Below are positions 2,434 to 31,531 of a stretch of DNA of 36,598 nt, one piece after another. The first letter of the stretch is position 1. Each line of letters opens with the position of its first letter. This DNA is from Oligoflexales bacterium (GTDB lineage Bacteria; Bdellovibrionota_B; Oligoflexia; Oligoflexales; Bog-1112). Position numbers and translations under genes: made by a program. The notes beneath the pieces are model-generated. The model was not told where the DNA came from. It saw only the letters and a list, made by a program, of their open reading frames with translations, and made no database searches. The stretch is taken from positions 1-36,598 of the forward strand of contig JAGNWK010000022.1 of assembly GCA_017985985.1 (NCBI GenBank). Reading direction: 5' to 3'.

Positions 2434-3396
2434 CTAAGTATTTGGACTTTCAAAGTCCCAACTTTCAGCTATTTTCTTAAATATAGACTTGGCTGACGCC
2501 CCAATTCTTTCTGCTTCCAGATGCTTATTCTCTGCAAAGAGACAATGCAAGTAGACCGGAATAATCTCTGCCAGAAAATAACCTTTTTTAAAAGCGATTT
2601 GAAGCAGTTCAAGAGCTGCTTCAAATCGATTCATTAAATAAAGGGCCTGTATACAGTCTGGGTAGAGAAAAAGACTCTTGGGAAACCTCCTCGACAAACT
2701 CAAGAAAAATCGATTTGCGACGAGAGGCATCGCCCAGCGCATATAAAGGTCACCTAAAAAGACCGTCGAAGCCAGATGCTGGGGGTATCTTTGCACAGCT
2801 TCTAATAATAGCTCTTCTGCCTTGTGAGGAAAAGAAGAGCTGTAGAGTTCATAAGCTAAACAGGGGATAGCGACTTTTTTAATGTCTTCTAACTGCGTCA
2901 ATTTCACTAAAATTTCGATTCGAGACTGCACCTTATCCATTTTTAGATATTGAGCCATCCCAAGACGTAAGGCATAGAAAGGGGGCGTCTCCCATTTAGT
3001 GATCAGATTCTGAAATGCTTTGACGAAGATGACAGGACGAAATGGCTTCGGAACAACATCCATGTAGGTCAGGCCAACTAAAACATCCTTTTCATAAGCC
3101 CGATGCTCCATCAAAAAACAGATGATGGGAAAAGAAAGCAGAACTGGCTGGAGCAAGAGTTTTCTAACCAAAGCCAGAACAGGCAGCTCAAGGGTGTCAT
3201 CAACAATAATAAAGGAAAAACTTTGTTTACGTGCCTCTAGCAAGAGCGATTCAACGCTCGTACAGATCTTTGTCACCCTCCAATCTTGAGGGAGAGACAC
3301 CTGCTGTAGAGAAGAAAGAGTACTTGCAGAATTGCCAAAAATCACGCAAGTCTTGTTCGACCATTCTTTTTTAGCAGGTTTACTGTCGTCAGGCAT
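2434..3396 (-). CDS. Degenerate response-regulator receiver fused to TPR-like helices
   Basis: The product has 320 residues. Residues about 15-135 resemble a CheY-type receiver: an FIIVDD strand where the phospho-acceptor aspartate normally lies, and a VVPKPF strand with the conserved Lys-Pro. The acidic pair expected after strand 1 is absent (NKTCVIFGN instead), so metal binding and phosphorylation are doubtful. Residues about 140-310 are helical and TPR-like (for example YPQHLASTVFLGDLYMRWA). This is a signalling or scaffold protein, probably cytoplasmic; receiver-TPR fusions are common in deltaproteobacteria-like lineages. It lies just upstream of the AsmA-like gene and diverges from the tsaC remnant across about 150 bp. 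The partner is unknown. The TPR call is by pattern only. Confidence 0.6.
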   Translation of the reverse strand: MPDDSKPAKKEWSNKTCVIFGNSASTLSSLQQVSLPQDWRVTKICTSVESLLLEARKQSFSFIIVDDTLELPVLALVRKLLLQPVLLSFPIICFLMEHRAYEKDVLVGLTYMDVVPKPFRPVIFVKAFQNLITKWETPPFYALRLGMAQYLKMDKVQSRIEILVKLTQLEDIKKVAIPCLAYELYSSSFPHKAEELLLEAVQRYPQHLASTVFLGDLYMRWAMPLVANRFFLSLSRRFPKSLFLYPDCIQALYLMNRFEAALELLQIAFKKGYFLAEIIPVYLHCLFAENKHLEAERIGASAKSIFKKIAESWDFESPNT

Positions 3397-7559: not shown

Positions 7560-9767
7560 TTATTTATGACCATTGAGAAGGTCTACTATCGTTTGAACTC
7601 TTCGATCGGCTCGCCCCATCCCCACACTGTCACGAAGGGGAAGATTCCCAGAGCCAGCCCCTTTTCCTAACCCTCTTTTTTCAAGTCCAGAGACGCTTTG
7701 TGCTCGGGGTATAGACCTGTCACGATTAGCCTTATCCACCTCTCCAAAGCCCAAAGCTTTTAAAGAAGGGCTCAAGGCCTCATCCAATGTAAGAAAAATA
7801 TGACAGCCAGAAGAGGGTTGAGAACTCTGCTCGAACATCTTTAAAAAGACATTCTTTGACCCCTGAGGGTAGGACAGGAACAAGCCCCATGTAGACAGAG
7901 CGGAGCCATCATCGACAAGAAAGGACTGCGAGGAGGAGAGGCCAAGACCCTGGTGGAGCGAGATCAATCCTGTCGCCTCTTCCATATCCTTTAAAAAATC
8001 TTTCATTCTCACGTCAGATAGGGAAGGCTCCGCTGATGAGATCTCCCGCCAAACCTTGGTCCAAGCTAGGCTATACTCCTGAATTTTCTTAGAAAATATA
8101 CTTCTTAACTCTTGCCGCGCCAGGCTTGATGACAGCTTCTGTGACAGCTGCCTCAGCATGCCTAACTTTTCATTCTTGTACCGAACAAGATTCTTAGCTT
8201 CACCAAATAAAGCAGTTAGATTTTGATTTTGTATTTTTTTCTGACTGCCGGTTTGTTTCTGCCATAGAACCAAAAGACCCTCTAGCTCCCTACTTTTCTG
8301 CCTAAGCTGTGATCTTAACAGATCATTTTGGGAAAGAATCTTTGCTGCAGTAGCAGCTTCTATACCCACTATACTGAGATCAAAGAGCTCCTTCACCGAT
8401 AGGTCAGGAGACACATTAAAGTCCAGCAGGTCCTCCGCTAGTCTTTTTTTCTTTTCTTCAAAGTCCCCTTGATCGCCGCCCAGAGGATCGGGAAGGCAGA
8501 CTGAGTCCAAACTTAGAGCATCTTGTAGCTCGTCCTTTAAAGTCCTCAAAAAAACAGCTAGATCATAAATCGTCATCTCTGCACGTTCTAAATTTTCCAA
8601 TTTCATTTTTTCGTTAGAAATTTTCAAATCTCGATCAGCCTGTCCATGTCCCCATCTCTGCAAAAAAGAGCTGATTCCATGCGACCATTTCGAACTTTTC
8701 TCCTTCTCTAGCTCTATTTTATTTTTAGCAAGCTCAAGTTCTTTTCTGAAAATATTTTTCCCATTCTCTAAAACCTGAAAGGATCTCTCTGTAGAAAAAA
8801 GAGCTTGGAATGGGCTCGATTGACTCTTACATATGCTCACGACTTTATCTTGAACACTCGATTCTAGCTTATGGAGATAAGATCTCGCATCACTTTTCAT
8901 TTTGACTTCAAAAGCATTGATCAGAAAATCATACCAACCCATGTGACTATAGTCGCTTTCTTTTCTGGCCATGACATTTTCAAGTCTACGGTACTTCTCA
9001 TTAAATGCTTTCTTCTCTTCCGGTGATAGACACGACCTACTTAAATTTTGGATGAACCAAAGAAGATCCTCCATCCGACTAAGAAGTGAAATTTCTTCTG
9101 ATAATTTTTCAAATGAATTGAGATCAAGCTCCGGATCTGTCGTATCCGATAAAGAGCCCAAGCTTTCTGAACACATTTGATATTCATGATAGATGGTTTT
9201 AAGAAGATCGACTGTTTTCTGAGGGGAATAAGATTGAAGGATAGACTGAACAAGTAAACTCTCATTACTTTGCAACCAAGAAGCACATAGACCTTGAATT
9301 TTGTTCTTTATCCATCTTTGAACTATTTTTTCATCCACCCCAAGTGAATTTGAGACCAAACTGACACGTACCCCCTCCCCTTCCGGGATTACCTCGAAGT
9401 GCCTACACAGTGGCCCCGAATCCAAAAGTTTAATTTCAGAACCTACAGAGCAAATCTCTGAAATTAAGTCCCTAACCCCTTTAGCTTCGGCAAAGCGACT
9501 ACCATTTTTTGAAAAGATAGTCCTACCCTGCTTGCGGGATATTGTCCATATATCCCCAGCATCATCCGAAACTTCGCAACTTAACTCTAAAACATCTGGA
9601 GAAAATTGCTCTTCAAAAAGACAGGAACAGACTGTTTTGAGAACAGAAAGCTCCTGGGCACTCCCCACACATATAAACGACTTTCTGTAAGGACCTACCC
9701 CTCCACGAAATTTCCACTCATACTGAGTCTGGTCCAAGACGGTAGCCTTCAAAGAAAGTAATTGCAA
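7560..9767 (-). CDS. Large coiled-coil protein of unknown function, possibly a P-loop-less YhaN/SMC relative
   Basis: The 735-residue product starts with TTG at 9767, where GGAG lies seven bases upstream. Its first 110 residues have a beta-rich pattern like the head of YhaN/SbcC/RecF-type ATPases (FICVGSAQELSVLKT where the ATP loop would be, then WTISRKQGRTIFSKNG). The Walker A glycine-lysine signature is missing. Residues about 150-600 are mainly helical, with long charged heptad-like stretches (for example KELELAKNKIELEKEKSSKW). The C-terminus includes HIFLTLDEALSPSL, faintly like a Walker B strand, and a basic disordered tail. No enzymatic residues are recognised. It is divergent from the HD phosphohydrolase across 158 bp. 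The YhaN relation is inference; a structural coiled-coil protein is equally possible. Confidence 0.6.
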   Translation of the reverse strand: MQLLSLKATVLDQTQYEWKFRGGVGPYRKSFICVGSAQELSVLKTVCSCLFEEQFSPDVLELSCEVSDDAGDIWTISRKQGRTIFSKNGSRFAEAKGVRDLISEICSVGSEIKLLDSGPLCRHFEVIPEGEGVRVSLVSNSLGVDEKIVQRWIKNKIQGLCASWLQSNESLLVQSILQSYSPQKTVDLLKTIYHEYQMCSESLGSLSDTTDPELDLNSFEKLSEEISLLSRMEDLLWFIQNLSRSCLSPEEKKAFNEKYRRLENVMARKESDYSHMGWYDFLINAFEVKMKSDARSYLHKLESSVQDKVVSICKSQSSPFQALFSTERSFQVLENGKNIFRKELELAKNKIELEKEKSSKWSHGISSFLQRWGHGQADRDLKISNEKMKLENLERAEMTIYDLAVFLRTLKDELQDALSLDSVCLPDPLGGDQGDFEEKKKRLAEDLLDFNVSPDLSVKELFDLSIVGIEAATAAKILSQNDLLRSQLRQKSRELEGLLVLWQKQTGSQKKIQNQNLTALFGEAKNLVRYKNEKLGMLRQLSQKLSSSLARQELRSIFSKKIQEYSLAWTKVWREISSAEPSLSDVRMKDFLKDMEEATGLISLHQGLGLSSSQSFLVDDGSALSTWGLFLSYPQGSKNVFLKMFEQSSQPSSGCHIFLTLDEALSPSLKALGFGEVDKANRDRSIPRAQSVSGLEKRGLGKGAGSGNLPLRDSVGMGRADRRVQTIVDLLNGHK

Positions 9768-23204: not shown

Positions 23205-23400
23205 ACCTCTTGAAGGACTCGAGGTACGTTCTCGCCTCGTTAAAGCCCCGTCACCTCGAGCGAAGCCGAGAGGTATCGAGTCTAAATAGAACAGACGATT
23301 AACCCTCACTTCACTCGGGGTACGTTGTCCAAGCTAGTTAAAGCCTCGTCACCTCGAGCGAAGCCGAGAGGTATCCAGTTAACATAGAACAGACGATTAA
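23205..23400. repeat. Two tandem ~98-bp repeats with CCTCGAGCGAAGCCGAGAGG hairpins
   Basis: Units end with nearly identical 64-bp blocks at 23239-23302 and 23337-23400 (start GTTAAAGCC, end ACAGACGATTAA). Each holds CCTCGAGCGAAGCCGAGAGG. In the first copy, ACTCGATACCTCT near 23199 also pairs with AGAGGTATCGAGT near 23269. The 305-bp gap 23188-23492 contains these repeats, and 23401-23492 shows no clear promoter. This is another dispersed palindromic family, distinct from the CATTGCGAG one. Confidence 0.8.
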
Positions 23401-23492
23401 GGAATTCCGCCTAACCGAATGACATTGGCGGTCCGGTGATCTCGCATGTAAAGGTCGTTCTCGTAAAGTTGACTTTTTTATATGGAACAAAG

Positions 23493-24518
23493 ATGAACCT
23501 GCTACTTCCCCTTATATGTTTACTTGTTTTCACCGTCGTAGACTGTCGAACATCCAAGAAGTATAAACCCATCAAGCGGGCCACCGACGTAACGGACTAC
23601 CACCCCATAGAAAAAGACTCTGAGCTCGTCGATGATAAAGAAAAAAAGGCTCAAATTGAGATTTACCTCCAAGAGCAAGAACAGGCTCAGCAAAGAAGAA
23701 AACAATCTCTAAGCGACAGAAAAGAACAAGAGAAAAATCTTGAAGAAGAGATTCACCATGCAGACGATCGTTTAAAAAGTAAACAAGCAGAGCTCGATAA
23801 AAAAAAGCAGAAACTAGAAAGAGCCGAGGATAAGCTTAAAGAGACCCCTTGGATTGAAGAACCGGCTATACCAACAAGCCCTGCTGGACCTAGCGTTACC
23901 CTACCACCAGCAGCTAATCCCCTACCTCCAACTGATCAGACTGTTATAAGTAACAGACCACCGAAGGAATGGGCTGCTGAGCTGGCTCCTATCGTCGCTC
24001 GTTATTTGATCGATGTCAAAAGATTAAAAATGGTAGACCTTACTGAAGTGACAAAACACCTCGGAAAAGTAGAGCTCGTCGATACGCTCAGTCATGCAGG
24101 AGCAGTTGGTATCTGTGAGCGATACTATCCAGGTCCAACACTCAACATCAAAATGTTAAAGCAACCACCCCCCATCACCATTCACACACCATTTGGAGTC
24201 CAAATGGTGAATGGGGTCTGGGATCAAGGGGCGATGAGAGCCATCATGTATCATGAATTGACCCACTGCCTACTCAATAAAGATCATCTCCCAACAACGT
24301 CCGAAAATCAAACCGAGCTGATGTACCCACAAGCCCCCCTAGAACCAAAGAACATAGCAAGTTTGTCAAGCTTGCTAAGCGCATTGAGCCCCTTCCCACC
24401 AACTACCTCACTTACCTTTTCCACCAAGTTCTCTGAAGACCAATGGGAGGCTAAACTGTTCAATCTCTTGGTCGGAAAGTTTGACCTCTGCCCTAATCTT
24501 TTAGGGGGAAACTTATAA
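23493..24518 (+). CDS. Predicted lipoprotein with coiled coil and metzincin-like zinc site
   Basis: The product has 341 residues from ATG 23493. Residues 1-17 form a hydrophobic signal and Cys18 (FTVVDC) is a possible lipidation site, though Asp at -1 is atypical. A charged coiled coil runs about 48-115, then a Pro-rich linker (about 120-165), then a globular part. At 254-265 it reads HELTHCLLNKDH: HExxH plus an Asp at the position of the third metzincin ligand and a His one further. Thirteen residues later ELMYP resembles a Met-turn. A periplasmic or outer-membrane zinc peptidase is the natural reading (inference), possibly cell-wall or prey/host directed. The stop overlaps ccoG by 6 bp in convergent orientation. 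Confidence 0.66.
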   Translation: MNLLLPLICLLVFTVVDCRTSKKYKPIKRATDVTDYHPIEKDSELVDDKEKKAQIEIYLQEQEQAQQRRKQSLSDRKEQEKNLEEEIHHADDRLKSKQAELDKKKQKLERAEDKLKETPWIEEPAIPTSPAGPSVTLPPAANPLPPTDQTVISNRPPKEWAAELAPIVARYLIDVKRLKMVDLTEVTKHLGKVELVDTLSHAGAVGICERYYPGPTLNIKMLKQPPPITIHTPFGVQMVNGVWDQGAMRAIMYHELTHCLLNKDHLPTTSENQTELMYPQAPLEPKNIASLSSLLSALSPFPPTTSLTFSTKFSEDQWEAKLFNLLVGKFDLCPNLLGGNL

Positions 24519-25895
24519 AGGCATTTTCCATACCAGTTCAGGGTGTGATTTATGTCTTAGAATAAGTGTCTTATCTTGATTTGTTTGAGACGGCATAACC
24601 ATCAGCATAAAGCGAGTTTCTCCGAAAGGGATCATCTCTCCTTTTAGACAAGGCCCACAGATCAGTTCAGCTCCTCTTGGTTCGACGAGCTCCAGATTAA
24701 GATTGAGTGATTCACGGAAGTTACTGATAGCATGGACTTCAAATATATGTGCTACTCGTCCATCAGGAAGAGTGCTCGTAAGCGTTCCTTTGGGTCGATT
24801 GAAGTTCAGCGTTAGAAGTGAACGGGTAGAAATTTTATAGATAAAAATTAAGCTTATAACAAGAACCGTCACAGCGTAAAAGAGAACCCTAGGACGGAGC
24901 ACATCCCTTAGTTTGGCTTTTTTCTGAGTTTGAAGCTCTTGCTCTGATGCCTGTCTCACAAGTCCAAGAGGACGATTCAAATTGAGCATAATTTCATCAC
25001 AGGCATCCGCACAGCGAAAACATTGGATGCACTCCAGTTGAATGCCGTTCCTGATATCGATGCCGGTTGGGCAGACTCGAACACAGAAGCCACAGTCTAT
25101 GCAGTCTCCCGCAGCTTTTTTACCCCTTGGTTCCCCACGAGTTTTATCGAAGGAAACAACAGGTGTCTTCTCATCTATAAGCAGGGATTGAAAACGAGCA
25201 TACGGGCAGAGAAAGGAGCAGAACTGCTCTCGAAACCATGAGAAGTCTAGGTAGAAAACGAGCCAAAGAAAGGCCATCACAGAAAAGCCACCTGGGTGAT
25301 CAAAAGGAGATGAGTTCAACCAATGAGAAAGAGTCCTCCAATGGACAAAGTAAGCTAAGAAAATATTAGCTATGATCCAAGCTATGCAGGCAAAACTAAG
25401 GTGTTTTATGAATTTTTTAAGGATATAGAGTGGGCTAAAAGATTTCTTTTGATCCGCAATTTTTCTCTTAGAAGCGTTTCCCTCACAAAGTTCTTCGATA
25501 GGACGAATAAGCCAATCTAAGAAGACCGTCTGGGGACAGGCCAGCCCACACCAGAGTCTTCCTGCTACGGCCGTAGTCAGAAATAACAAAAATCCTGCCG
25601 CCAGGAGAAGATACACTAGCAGGTGGATTTCATGAAAACGAAGGACTTGAGCAAAAAAATAAATTTTTTGCTCTTCTATACTGATCTGTAGCAGTGGCCG
25701 CCCATCGAGTTCAAGAAAAGGTACGGAGCAGTAGATAAACATGAGGGCTACAGCCAGATACTTACGCAGGCTGATGCGAGAACCTTTCTTTCTTCGCTCC
25801 GGGTAAATCCAGCGACGTCCACCCCCAGCAGTTACTGTCGGAGCAAGAAAAGATAAACTTACCTTCTCTGCCGCTGAGGACTTTTTCTCCTGCAT
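24513..25895 (-). CDS. ccoG: cbb3 oxidase accessory iron-sulfur protein CcoG
   Basis: The product has 460 residues: N-terminal membrane helices (RYLAVALMFIYCSVPFL and others), CPQTVFLDW, two 4Fe-4S motifs in CIDCGFCVRVCP and CIQCFRCADAC, another helix near 330, and a C-terminal Ig-like FixG domain. CcoG is an inner-membrane copper reductase that supports cbb3 oxidase assembly. A strong site (AAGGAAGGGGAGAGG) precedes the ATG at 25895. It follows the TauE/SafE-like gene on the minus strand and is divergent from the other cco genes. Confidence 0.95.
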   Translation of the reverse strand: MQEKKSSAAEKVSLSFLAPTVTAGGGRRWIYPERRKKGSRISLRKYLAVALMFIYCSVPFLELDGRPLLQISIEEQKIYFFAQVLRFHEIHLLVYLLLAAGFLLFLTTAVAGRLWCGLACPQTVFLDWLIRPIEELCEGNASKRKIADQKKSFSPLYILKKFIKHLSFACIAWIIANIFLAYFVHWRTLSHWLNSSPFDHPGGFSVMAFLWLVFYLDFSWFREQFCSFLCPYARFQSLLIDEKTPVVSFDKTRGEPRGKKAAGDCIDCGFCVRVCPTGIDIRNGIQLECIQCFRCADACDEIMLNLNRPLGLVRQASEQELQTQKKAKLRDVLRPRVLFYAVTVLVISLIFIYKISTRSLLTLNFNRPKGTLTSTLPDGRVAHIFEVHAISNFRESLNLNLELVEPRGAELICGPCLKGEMIPFGETRFMLMVMPSQTNQDKTLILRHKSHPELVWKMPL

Positions 25896-26683: not shown

Positions 26684-29215
26684 ATGTTCTCCGATAAGAT
26701 TTCGACATTCCAGGCTCTTACGAAGTCATGCTTACACTGCAGTCGGCCTTTTGTACCAATTCATGAGAAGGACTCGCTGCCCGTACAATGCCCTCAGAGT
26801 TCACCACAGAGAAATGAATTTTGCTGCCATGGCTGCTTTGGCTCTTACCAGCTTATACACTCCCTGGGACTCTCCGATTATTACACACTTCGAGAACAAT
26901 CTTCTCTATCTCGTTTTGAAGAAAGCTTTAGTTCTGCTGCAATCTATGATGAGGAGATCTTCAAAAGATCATTTTGTGAGCAGCAGGAAGACGGAAAAGA
27001 GAAAGCCAATTTTAGCATCTCAGGTCTGCATTGTTTTGCCTGCGTTTGGCTCTGTGAAAAAGCTCTAGCAGCTAAACATCCTGAAGTCACTCCTTCGATT
27101 AATTTTGCTAAAAAAAGACTATCTCTTCAGTATCAAGCATCTAGCTCAAAGCTAAGTACTCTCGTCATTTTTTTCCAAGATCTGGGTTTTCATCTCGAAC
27201 CATATCAGCACGAGAGTGCTCATCTTTCCATGAATGTCCGGGATGAATTGATTCCATTAGCCTGCTCCTTCCTCAGTGCTAGTCAGATTATGATTTTCTC
27301 GCTGGCCGACTATTTTTCAGGGGGGGCTGTTTCGGGTCCGATCCGCCCTCTTTTCCTTGCTGCTTCTTTGGGCTTTGCTTCGATCAGTCTCTTTTACTGC
27401 GCGCAGTCCTACTTACTTTCACTTCTACGTTTTCTGAGATCGGGCAAAATCTCTCTTGACATTCCTATTTCTATAGCCTTTTTAAGTAGCTACTTTTATT
27501 CCCTCTGGTCTGTCTACTCTGGGCATGGGGCTGTCTACTTCGACTCTCTGAGTTTTATTATCTTCCTGCTGCTTGCTGGTCGATATCTCAAAAATAGGCA
27601 AGTGGAAAAGATCGATCAGCAGATCTCAAGCATAGCTTTTAATTCGAGTCGCAAGGGTGAAGGGGAGTTCGTCCAAGCTTCAGGACAAGATGGAAAAAAG
27701 ACATTCATCGCCCTAGAAAAAATCAAAAAAGGGATGACTATCTACTTGGTCCCCCATGAACTGCTCCCACTCCGTGCAGAACTGGTATCTCCCGAACAGG
27801 CTGAGCTCTCCGTAGAGCCGATGACAGGCGAGCTACGTTCCCTTGTTTATAAAAAGGGAAATAGTCTGAATGGAGGACTACAGAATGGATCCAGACCTCT
27901 CGAGCTTAAGGCTCTCGAAGATGGGCTAGTGAGTCAGCTGTACAAACATAAGACCTTCCTCGAAGAGCTCTATCACGCGAAAGGATCTTATACGCTCTGG
28001 GCCGAGCGCTTGAGCCTCCTTTTCTTCTGGTTCATGCTTCTTGCTGGGGCAGCTGTTCTCCTCTATTGGTTACCAAAATCTCCAGAAACAGCTTTTTACA
28101 GATTTATTGGGGTGATGATAGTCGCCTGTCCCTGTGTTTTCAGCCTTTGTCTTCCACTCGTTTATGGGCTCAGCTTCTCAGAAGGTTTGAAAGCTGGGCT
28201 AATTTTTAAAAATCAAGCTGCGATAGAAAAAATGTCTCAGGTCAAAAAAATATTTTTTGATAAGACAGGAACTCTCACCAAAGGCAGGCCACATATCACC
28301 AGAGCGATACTTGACGAGAAAAAATTATCAGAACTCGGCCTATCCCGAAATGACGCTTTGAATATCTTTAGAGAGCTAGCCCTGTCTTCACAACACCACC
28401 ACCTTCTCGGTTTAATCCGTTGGGCAGAAGAAGAGTCTCCTCCTACCCCTAAAAGGAAAACACTCCGCATTTCCAAGGTGAAAGAACAATTGGGAGAGGG
28501 CATAACTTTTGAGCTTGAAAATGAAAAGAGAACTTCCTTCGCCAGACTTGGCAGATCAGCCTTTGCCCTGACAGACAAAGACACAATCAAATCACCTAGC
28601 AAGGAACCTGCCAGTCTGTATTTCAGTCTTGACGGGAACATCATTGGTTCTTTTATCCTCGAAGATGAACCTCTTGAAGGTGTCCGAGCTGAACTGGCGC
28701 TAATTCGACAAAAAGGATTTGAAATTCAGATTTTAACAGGAGATGGAGCTCGAGAGGCTCATCGTATCGGCACTCTACTCGATTTTAGAGAAGAAGAAAT
28801 TTCCCATTCTCTAAGTCCTGCAGAAAAACAAAACATCATCCTCGCAGAAAAAAAATTCTCAGCCATGGTTGGGAATGGACTCAACGACGCCATGGCTCTC
28901 GGCTCTTCCTGTGTGGGAATTGCTGTCTTAAAAGCTCACTCTTTAGCCAAAAATCAAGCAGATATAATTTTGCTTCGAGAAGATCTTTCCCTTCTCCATC
29001 AAACTTCTAAAATCAGTAAAAAGGCTGTAAACGCAATCAAGAAAGCTTTCTTTGTTTCCACCGTCTACAATCTGCTCTCTCTCAGCTTAGCGTTGACAGG
29101 GAGAATTTCACCGTTGGTTGCAGCTATTCTTATGCCGATCAATTCGCTTCTTGTTCTTATGATCAGCACCTTTTGGGCCAGGGGAACGGCTCTCGCAACG
29201 AGGCCAGTCCCATGA
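26684..29215 (+). CDS. ccoI: Cu+-exporting P1B-ATPase for cbb3 oxidase assembly
   Basis: The product has 843 residues. The N-terminus has CLHC, then FCCHGC, then a heavy-metal domain with GLHCFACVW. About eight helices follow, with the CPC motif in IVACPCVFSL, phosphorylation motif DKTGTLT, TGE in PMTGELRS, and GDG in LTGDGAREAH. Two motifs are altered: MVGNGLNDAMAL has Asn where MVGDGxND usually has Asp, and the His-Pro motif region reads SQHHHLL. CcoI delivers copper to CcoN. It overlaps ccoS by four bases (ATGA). GTG 26660 is an alternative start inside the opposing gene. Confidence 0.94.
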   Translation: MFSDKISTFQALTKSCLHCSRPFVPIHEKDSLPVQCPQSSPQRNEFCCHGCFGSYQLIHSLGLSDYYTLREQSSLSRFEESFSSAAIYDEEIFKRSFCEQQEDGKEKANFSISGLHCFACVWLCEKALAAKHPEVTPSINFAKKRLSLQYQASSSKLSTLVIFFQDLGFHLEPYQHESAHLSMNVRDELIPLACSFLSASQIMIFSLADYFSGGAVSGPIRPLFLAASLGFASISLFYCAQSYLLSLLRFLRSGKISLDIPISIAFLSSYFYSLWSVYSGHGAVYFDSLSFIIFLLLAGRYLKNRQVEKIDQQISSIAFNSSRKGEGEFVQASGQDGKKTFIALEKIKKGMTIYLVPHELLPLRAELVSPEQAELSVEPMTGELRSLVYKKGNSLNGGLQNGSRPLELKALEDGLVSQLYKHKTFLEELYHAKGSYTLWAERLSLLFFWFMLLAGAAVLLYWLPKSPETAFYRFIGVMIVACPCVFSLCLPLVYGLSFSEGLKAGLIFKNQAAIEKMSQVKKIFFDKTGTLTKGRPHITRAILDEKKLSELGLSRNDALNIFRELALSSQHHHLLGLIRWAEEESPPTPKRKTLRISKVKEQLGEGITFELENEKRTSFARLGRSAFALTDKDTIKSPSKEPASLYFSLDGNIIGSFILEDEPLEGVRAELALIRQKGFEIQILTGDGAREAHRIGTLLDFREEEISHSLSPAEKQNIILAEKKFSAMVGNGLNDAMALGSSCVGIAVLKAHSLAKNQADIILLREDLSLLHQTSKISKKAVNAIKKAFFVSTVYNLLSLSLALTGRISPLVAAILMPINSLLVLMISTFWARGTALATRPVP

Positions 29216-29406
29216 ACATACTATTCTTTCTCATCCCTCTGAGTCTTCTCTTCTCTCTCTTGGGCCTTGCAGCCTTCATCTGGGGAGTCAAGTCGGGTCA
29301 GTTTGATGATTTAGAATCGCCAGCCTTAGAACTTACGTATGAAGAACGCATCTATAATCGTGCATCAAAAACCATATCCAAGGGAGGGGAACGTGACGAT
29401 ATCTGA
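29212..29406 (+). CDS. ccoS: cbb3 oxidase maturation protein CcoS
   Basis: The product has 64 residues with one helix (LFFLIPLSLLFSLLGLAAF) and the family signature FIWGVKSGQFDDLESPA. CcoS is needed for heme and copper insertion into the oxidase. The ATG overlaps the ccoI stop (ATGA), and the ccoNO gene starts 14 bases before its stop, so translation is coupled on both sides. Confidence 0.94.
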   Translation: MNILFFLIPLSLLFSLLGLAAFIWGVKSGQFDDLESPALELTYEERIYNRASKTISKGGERDDI

Positions 29407-31531
29407 GAACACAGAAAGGAACCCAAAACTGAGCTACGATGATGGCATTGTGCGCCTCTTCGTCTGGGCCACGATCATCTTCGGTGTCATCGGCATGGTA
29501 GCAGGGGTACTGGCCGCCCTGCAGCTGGCCTGGTGGCCTGCTAATCTAGGACTCCCATGGACCAGCTTTGGTCGGATCCGTCCCGTACATACGAATGCTG
29601 TAGTTTTTGCTTTTGCTGGGAACGCATTTTTTGTTGCCCTCTACTACTCGCTGCAACGCCTCTTAAAAACACGGATGTATTCCGATCTACTCTCAAGGAT
29701 TCATTTTTGGGGTTGGCAGTTTATCATTCTCTTGGTGGCCATCACTCTACCTCTGGGAATGACACGAGGGAAAGAGTATGCCGAAGCGGAATGGCCTATC
29801 GCTATTTTGATCACAGTGATATGGGTCGTCCTCTGTCTAAACGTATTTTTTACTTTAAAAGTACGTCGTGTTCAGCATCTCTATGTGGCCATTTGGTTTT
29901 ACTTAGCATCCTTACTTGCCATAGCCATGCTTCACATTGTGAACGCACTGGTCATCCCGTTAGACTGGTTTAAAAGTTACTCGATTTATTCAGGCGTGCA
30001 AGACGCTCTGGTCCAGTGGTGGTATGGACACAATGCGGTTGGATTCCTGCTAACAACACCCTTTCTCGGTCTTATGTACTACTTTGTACCCAAGGCCTGT
30101 GGACAACCCGTCTACTCCTATAGACTATCGATCATCCACTTCTGGTCCCTGGTCTTTATCTACATATGGGCAGGACCACATCATCTTTTATACAGCTCTC
30201 TCCCGGAATGGGCTCAGTCACTTGGTATGGTTTTTTCTCTGATGCTCCTTGCTCCTTCTTGGGGAGGGATGATCAACGGTCTTCTCACCATGAGAGGAAC
30301 TTGGGACCGGTTAAAATCAGACCCTGTTTTAAAGTTTTTCCTCCTGGCTCTTACCTTTTATGGGATGGCCACACTTGAGGGGTCATTACTATCTATCAAA
30401 AGCCTGAACCTTCTTACTCATGATACAGACTACACGATTGCCCACGTGCATGGTGGGGGTCTAGGTTGGGTAGGGGGTATGGTTTTCGGTATGCTCTACT
30501 ATCTAGCCCCAAGACTCTGGCAGAGGGAACTTTATAGCAAAAGTCTGGCTCACACTCATTTCTGGCTCGCTACCATAGGAATCCTCCTCTACGTAAGCTC
30601 CATGTGGGTAGCCGGTCTTATGCAGGGGCTGATGTGGTTCGCCACCGATAAAAATGGGTACCTGCTTTACCCTCAATTCATTGAGACAGTGGAAGCTATT
30701 AAACCACTCTACTGGGCTCGCCTGATTGGTGGGACTCTCTATCTGGTCGGAGCCATACTTTGCTTATATAATTTGATACGAACGGCTCTTGCTGGCTCTT
30801 GTCCAGCCGATGAGACTTTCTCCTATACTAGGGAAGTGAGTAAGCATGTAGGAACTGTTCATGAAAAGATTGAGCATCGCGGCTTGCTTATGGGGGTTCT
30901 TGCTTTTATTGCCCTTGCTGTTGGTGGACTCTGTGAGTTTATCCCTGCTTTTCTTGTCGAAATCCCAGAAGAAAAATTAGCTCATATTCGTCCCTACACA
31001 GCCCTTGAACTAGAGGGCCGAGATGTCTACATAGAAGAAGGGTGCAGCTACTGTCACACCCAGATGGTACGGACTTATGCCAAAGAAACCCTTAGATATG
31101 GTCCAAAGTCTGAACAAGAAGAGTTTATTTATGATCACCCCTTCTTATGGGGATCAAAGAGGACAGGCCCAGACTTGCACAGAGTGGGAGGAAAGTATCC
31201 CGATCTTTGGCACTATCGACATATGAAAGATCCTCGCTCTATTTCCCCTGGCTCAGTGATGCCCTCCTATGCATGGCTGGAGAGCTCTCGCATCGACAGA
31301 ACTCGTCTATCCGACAAATTAGATGTCATGAGACGACTTGGTGTCCCATATAGCGCAGAAGAGATCAAAACAGCAGAAAGTATGGCTCGTCAACAAGCTG
31401 AGGGTATCCTCTCTCGATTGAGCAAAGACGGGGTGCAAGAGCTCCCCTGGGACTCAAAGCTTCTTGCTCTGATTGCGTACCTGCAGCGGCTCGGAGTGGA
31501 TAGAAAAAATGAATCGGTTTCTCAGCCCTAG
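29393..31531 (+). CDS. ccoNO: Fused cbb3 oxidase subunits I and II (CcoN-CcoO)
   Basis: The product has 712 residues. The first ~500 are CcoN: His ligands in PVHTNAVVFAF, WWYGHNAVGF, AGPHHLLY and IAHVHGGGLGW serve the hemes and CuB. The rest is CcoO: a membrane helix (LLMGVLAFIALAVGG), then cytochrome c motif CSYCH at 551-555, RTGPDLHRVGG, and the Met ligand in VMPSYAW. GTG 29393 was chosen for its GGAGG site five bases away, overlapping ccoS. Separate CcoN and CcoO are usual; natural fusions are known in some lineages. The enzyme reduces oxygen to water at high affinity and pumps protons. Confidence 0.96.
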   Translation: MTISENTERNPKLSYDDGIVRLFVWATIIFGVIGMVAGVLAALQLAWWPANLGLPWTSFGRIRPVHTNAVVFAFAGNAFFVALYYSLQRLLKTRMYSDLLSRIHFWGWQFIILLVAITLPLGMTRGKEYAEAEWPIAILITVIWVVLCLNVFFTLKVRRVQHLYVAIWFYLASLLAIAMLHIVNALVIPLDWFKSYSIYSGVQDALVQWWYGHNAVGFLLTTPFLGLMYYFVPKACGQPVYSYRLSIIHFWSLVFIYIWAGPHHLLYSSLPEWAQSLGMVFSLMLLAPSWGGMINGLLTMRGTWDRLKSDPVLKFFLLALTFYGMATLEGSLLSIKSLNLLTHDTDYTIAHVHGGGLGWVGGMVFGMLYYLAPRLWQRELYSKSLAHTHFWLATIGILLYVSSMWVAGLMQGLMWFATDKNGYLLYPQFIETVEAIKPLYWARLIGGTLYLVGAILCLYNLIRTALAGSCPADETFSYTREVSKHVGTVHEKIEHRGLLMGVLAFIALAVGGLCEFIPAFLVEIPEEKLAHIRPYTALELEGRDVYIEEGCSYCHTQMVRTYAKETLRYGPKSEQEEFIYDHPFLWGSKRTGPDLHRVGGKYPDLWHYRHMKDPRSISPGSVMPSYAWLESSRIDRTRLSDKLDVMRRLGVPYSAEEIKTAESMARQQAEGILSRLSKDGVQELPWDSKLLALIAYLQRLGVDRKNESVSQP

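Follow-up and report, generated by a model that had tools for sequence, protein, structure and literature searches.

The metzincin signature, HExxHxxGxxH/D, serves to recognise such enzymes in genomes, and snapalysin (M7) carries the HExxHxxGxxD form. An excerpt of PMC5491558 gives HEXXHXXXGXXH as a general statement of the metzincin motif. Here we describe a small, unnamed group of proteins that departs from this consensus, with HExxHC-x5-H in 20 of 21 members, and that probably constitutes an undescribed metzincin-like subfamily. A literature search for an x6-spaced zinc motif returned no description of such a family at the level of titles and abstracts.

Our analysis started from a 36,598-nucleotide stretch of Oligoflexales DNA, which we call the window. 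A plus-strand ORF at 23493..24518 encodes 341 amino acids and a stop codon, and is backed by its translation, its coding potential, a paralogue and further relatives. By codon usage its own frame is the best of six, its GC and GC3 match those of the adjacent genes, and an in-frame GTG at 23436 is a possible upstream start that would add 19 residues. An earlier note on this DNA had the coordinates, frame and residue numbering right: HELTHCLLNKDH occupies residues 254-265, with H254, E255, H258, D264 and H265, and is followed by ELMYP, in which LMYP spans residues 276-279 and the Met is M277.

The window protein alone, used as query, matches in 7 of 38 genomes; its own genome encodes a paralogue, and genomes of the same family encode relatives. 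One hit, L005, was excluded from the protein family since it matches only through N-terminal residues 7-116. The window protein and 8 relatives formed a first alignment (A1), which was then used as a search profile and identified 21 places in 14 of the 58 genomes of the class; the phylum-level profile search covered the same 58 genomes. The second alignment (A2) has one row for each of these 21 places, two of which (L021 and L022) are near-identical. A search of genome contigs identified 7 relatives among 100 candidate stretches, and the MAGs that carry named relatives are labelled Oligoflexales, Deltaproteobacteria or Zetaproteobacteria. Viral contigs contributed 1 relative among 43 candidates, a protein with HELSHCLLNKKH and then YMYP. 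This small relative (L039, 1779-2210) and an ORF on the opposite strand (2587-3129), which looks DD-peptidase-like by eye, are about 0.4 kb apart. As a query against viral contigs it recovered only itself (70 candidates), and tblastn returned no match in phage records with this protein and none in phage or plasmid records with the family member L015. To date, members of the family have been observed in one bacterial class and on one viral contig.

Residues C208, H254, E255, H258 and C259 are identical in all 21 rows of A2, and an IM or LM pair lies downstream of the third His in the sequence of every member. That third His is placed at +11 from the first His in 20 of the 21 members, the window protein included. 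The sole exception, L018, carries its His residues at +10 and +12 without one at +11, and L029 has His at both +10 and +11; the H265 column itself reads 21/21 because, next to L018, the aligner placed a gap in the other rows. Conservation of the H, E and H is partly a product of selection, since the relatives were collected with profiles that contain the motif. In the window protein the motif H254-E255-L-T-H258-C259-L-L-N-K-D264-H265 lies at 24252..24287 on the plus strand, as do all features given below. Column counts and spacing make H254, H258 and H265 the likely zinc ligands, in a motif that runs one residue beyond HExxHxxGxxH. The putative Met-turn, L276-M277-Y-P (24318..24329), falls in a column that has Met in 20 rows out of 21, all except L023, whose IM comes farther along, at +34. 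Across family members the invariant Cys pair is found at -31 to -56 and at +5 relative to the first His. Cys208 (24114..24116), invariant in 21/21 rows, is the proposed partner of Cys259, and the two probably form a disulfide, a pairing suggested by their shared invariance.

The earlier note had called for a structure prediction, and the AF2 folds turned out to be nearest to metzincins, at VIA Z-scores that are all below 8, a range that may reflect merely a common arrangement. With the window domain as first row above 8 relatives, AF2 reached a pLDDT of 71.0 and a pTM of 0.73 (model md6e27052e83d), with a weak region near an insertion (model residues 134-158, pLDDT <50); with the relative L036 as first row, these values were 82.7 and 0.81. 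Neither model had a Foldseek match in the PDB at E ≤ 0.001. Of the best 16 Foldseek matches of the window model, 15 are named as metzincins or as other zincins, the sixteenth being a conserved hypothetical protein, and for the L036 model an MMP holds second place among mixed rows. VIA, a second look at Foldseek's own candidates, ranked 1hv5 (MMP-11) best for the window model (Z 7.7, rmsd 3.6, 120 aligned) and for the L036 model (Z 7.2, rmsd 3.7, 124 aligned), and metzincins account for 50 of 50 among the matches listed for each of the two. In BFVD, the L036 model matches the predicted structure of a protein of Lactobacillus phage 3-521 (E 1.4e-5, probability 1.00), a phage matrixin whose sequence contains a canonical HELGHVLGLGH and IMQP.

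These proteins could instead be zincins of another branch (selecase-like, SprT-like or another minimal zincin) that do not derive from metzincins. The family profile aligns without gaps to selecase MJ1213 (PDB 4qhi) over HELLHLKYGKYH at E 0.13, one member matches SprT-like at 1.6e-5, and PF18894 matches 7 of the 21 members at E ≤ 1, with a best value of 3e-5. We consider such an origin unlikely, given the IM/LM pair after the third His in every member, the VIA matches listed, which are metzincins throughout, and the Foldseek ranking of the window model, which places 4qhi below MMPs and ADAM17. PDB sequence searches returned nothing below E 0.05 with the family profile, the best protease being fragilysin (0.057), and nothing relevant with single proteins.

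The preferred assignment, a metzincin-like catalytic domain at residues 161-341 (23973..24515), draws on the AF2 model, VIA and a profile built without the window protein. Outside this core, the window copy reads as a divergent paralogue, with an extra charged helix, a Pro-rich linker, an insertion and a degenerate lipobox, a layout absent from all other relatives aligned in A2. From its sequence and the lipoboxes of relatives, a hydrophobic export segment (residues 1-18, 23493..23546) ends at Cys18 in VVDC, with Asp rather than Gly, Ala or Ser at -1; the hydrophobic segment closes with A/G/S-Cys in 15 of 20 relatives by reading, and 11 of them pass the strict pattern. With this lipobox, the designation of the window protein as a lipoprotein is no more than plausible. 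Residues 47-117 (23631..23843), missing in the aligned relatives, are 55% charged and by composition and weak coiled-coil matches form a charged helix or weak coiled coil; given this charge and only one clear heptad stripe, the coiled coil that had been proposed is no more likely than a single charged helix. Against Pfam and NCBIfam the whole protein has weak matches only; all stay below the curated cut-offs, and almost all fall on this N-terminal helix. By composition, residues 118-160 (23844..23972; 28% Pro) form a Pro-rich linker. Alignments A1 and A2 place the insertion after the Met-turn, at residues 285-311 (24345..24425), in the window copy only.

Such divergence raises the possibility that the window copy is a degenerate paralogue that has lost protein cutting and plays a binding or structural role in the envelope. 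Its branch length of 6.67 in the tree, its top identity of 28%, the VVDC lipobox, the low-complexity additions and a layout unmatched among the aligned relatives all favor this view, but the protein retains every family-invariant residue and its codon usage is normal, and we regard a loss of activity as quite improbable. With a long window branch, and 14 of its 18 inner branches open, the tree does not resolve an origin of the window copy from its own-genome paralogue.

The genomic setting of the window copy also differs from that of its relatives. In 7 of 7 neighborhoods of relatives (L040 10832-12167 and L041-L046, with the own-genome paralogue included), the copy is near an RNase H gene, and in 4 of 7 it is near a FliG gene; Pfam was the basis of assignment for 4 of these RNase H proteins and 2 of these FliG proteins, and the rest were joined by blastp. 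The window copy lies elsewhere, between phoH and ccoG. The latter (window 24513-25895) encodes a CcoG-like ferredoxin and has no match in the remaining 7 genomes of the family, which may mean that the cbb3 region is specific to this lineage. Farther along, a single ORF at window 29339-31531 combines COX1 (CcoN) and FixO (CcoO) domains as a fused cbb3 oxidase subunit. Elsewhere, a 735-aa ORF at window 7560-9767 has no Pfam match at 0.001. Upstream of the gene for the window protein are two copies of a 67-nt repeat (window 23236-23302 and 23334-23400, 91% identical). Its palindromic core, CACCTCGAGCGAAGCCGAGAGGTATC, occurs at 27 places in the genome at ≤2 mismatches, the reversed control at 0, and the repeat looks like a dispersed, REP-like intergenic element.

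The earlier note had put Asp264 at the third-ligand position, with a His beside it. An Asp ligand would place the protein with snapalysin-like or Asp-zincin peptidases. Asp264 does sit at the canonical +10 spacing, and snapalysin 4hx3 is among the VIA matches listed for L036 (Z 6.3, rmsd 3.3, 105 aligned). Position 264, however, is replaceable across the 21 rows (G 11, D 2, S 2, and A, K, T, H, E and N once each), whereas the adjoining His keeps its exact spacing in 20 of 21. The 8 first-found relatives, which the window protein retrieved as query and which were aligned in A1, were free to match either residue; they keep H265 in 8/8 cases and D264 in 0/8. We therefore rejected Asp264, which is very unlikely to be the ligand, in favor of H265. 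The usual Gly is indeed missing, as had been remarked, its place at position 261 being taken by Leu; this ceases to be an oddity because the motif is one residue longer. At position 262, where the active-site helix would end, the 21 rows have N 11, S 3, E 2, D 2, and A, K and G once each. The AF2 models end that helix at M143 (L036) and L110 (window), in model numbering, which is one and two residues short of the Asn position, and the third His follows 4 and 5 residues after the helix end, respectively.

Statistical support for membership comes from a leave-one-out profile built from the 20 relatives without the window protein. This profile scores the window protein at 53.2 bits (E 1.7e-16 for 100 sequences), against at most 4.9 bits over 2000 shuffles of the domain and at most 1.7 for other ORFs of the window. 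The motif supplies most of the homology signal but not all of it: when the motif block alone was kept in place the mean score was 37.1 (500 shuffles), and when it alone was shuffled a mean of 10.6 remained (500 shuffles), so homology reaches past the motif. An HExxH can arise randomly, and among the window reading frames of 80 aa or more one other, at 27209, contains HESAH. For the window protein, a coincidental HExxH without relation to the family is refuted by the leave-one-out score and shuffles and is scarcely credible. Pfam, NCBIfam and PHROGs returned no match for the window domain.

Taken together, we consider it reasonably likely that the window protein is exported, is probably tethered to the envelope and acts as a zinc endopeptidase through a metzincin-like catalytic domain. 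In the proposed mechanism, the N-terminal hydrophobic segment would direct export, and Cys18 may carry a lipid, its lipobox being imperfect. The charged helix and Pro-rich linker, judging from their composition, could space the catalytic domain from the membrane. H254, H258 and H265 would bind zinc with E255 as general base, roles suggested by their conservation and by the established chemistry of zincins. The active-site helix appears to exceed that of metzincins by about one residue and to end near Asn262 instead of at a Gly, as indicated by sequence and predicted secondary structure, which would put the third ligand at +11 rather than +10 from the first His. M277, by its position in the sequence, would form the Met-turn beneath the zinc, and a C208-C259 disulfide would probably pin the active-site helix to the sheet. 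The substrate would most probably be a secreted protein or one of the envelope, and the insertion at 285-311, which would fall at the place of the metzincin S1' loop, could alter specificity.

The proposal of a new subfamily of surface peptidases is thus supported in its main part, without the Asp ligand: invariant zinc-site residues occur across the relatives, no curated family covers the domain, and metzincins are the nearest neighbors of the predicted folds. A surface location of the window protein is something that we infer. What deserves interest is the family as a whole and not Asp264 of the window copy, a lineage-specific variant whose own biological reach is therefore limited. On balance we are evenly divided on a fuller formulation, in which a new metzincin-like family has a zinc helix extended by one residue (HExxHC-x5-H), a helix end that is mostly Asn one place after the canonical Gly, and an invariant disulfide fixing the active-site helix, so that the signature is broken and the fold kept. 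If true, a family that keeps the fold and lengthens the motif would escape signature searches and would test how strictly zinc geometry depends on that Gly and on the motif spacing; the bacterium, for its part, would have a probable envelope protease.

Among known systems, PF18894 (PhageMetallopep) resembles this family through the member matches given above; unlike those members, the window domain does not match it, and the two member matches with positions are partial and under the curated cut-off. Selecase MJ1213 shares the HExxHx6H spacing, a likeness in sequence alone, but has a chain of ~110 residues and ranks under MMPs for the window model. Snapalysin resembles the window copy in its Asp at +10 and in the 4hx3 match, but on the basis of conservation the family differs from it and from other Asp-zincins, its Asp being variable and the adjoining His almost invariant. 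The matrixins (PF00413, MEROPS M10) and other metzincins are alike in HExxH, the third His, a Met-turn-like IM/LM and the nearest predicted fold; unlike them, this family adds one residue before the third His, lacks the helix-ending Gly and has the invariant Cys pair. The PF00413 cut-off is not reached: the window protein and its domain give no match, and 4 of the 21 members match at E ≤ 1 (best 9e-4). We do not class the protein as a metzincin, metzincin-like as its proposed working is, because it lacks the defining HExxHxxGxxH.

A Peptidase_M10 search of the same class matched 53 of 54 genomes, and 30 loci were taken from these matches as a matrixin comparison set. All 30 show HExxHxxGxxH, as expected for loci chosen by the Peptidase_M10 model. 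Aligned to them by hhalign, the family without the window protein gave a probability of 95.4 over 35 columns, in the motif region only, with one residue more between the second and third His than in the matrixins. Six of the 30 carry HExxHCxGxxH, sharing with this family a Cys right after the second His and an upstream Cys, but the upstream one lies at -20 or -21 in them, as opposed to -31 to -56 here, and their zinc spacing is canonical. A disulfide on the active-site helix is thus plausible in both groups, with its partner at a different position in each.
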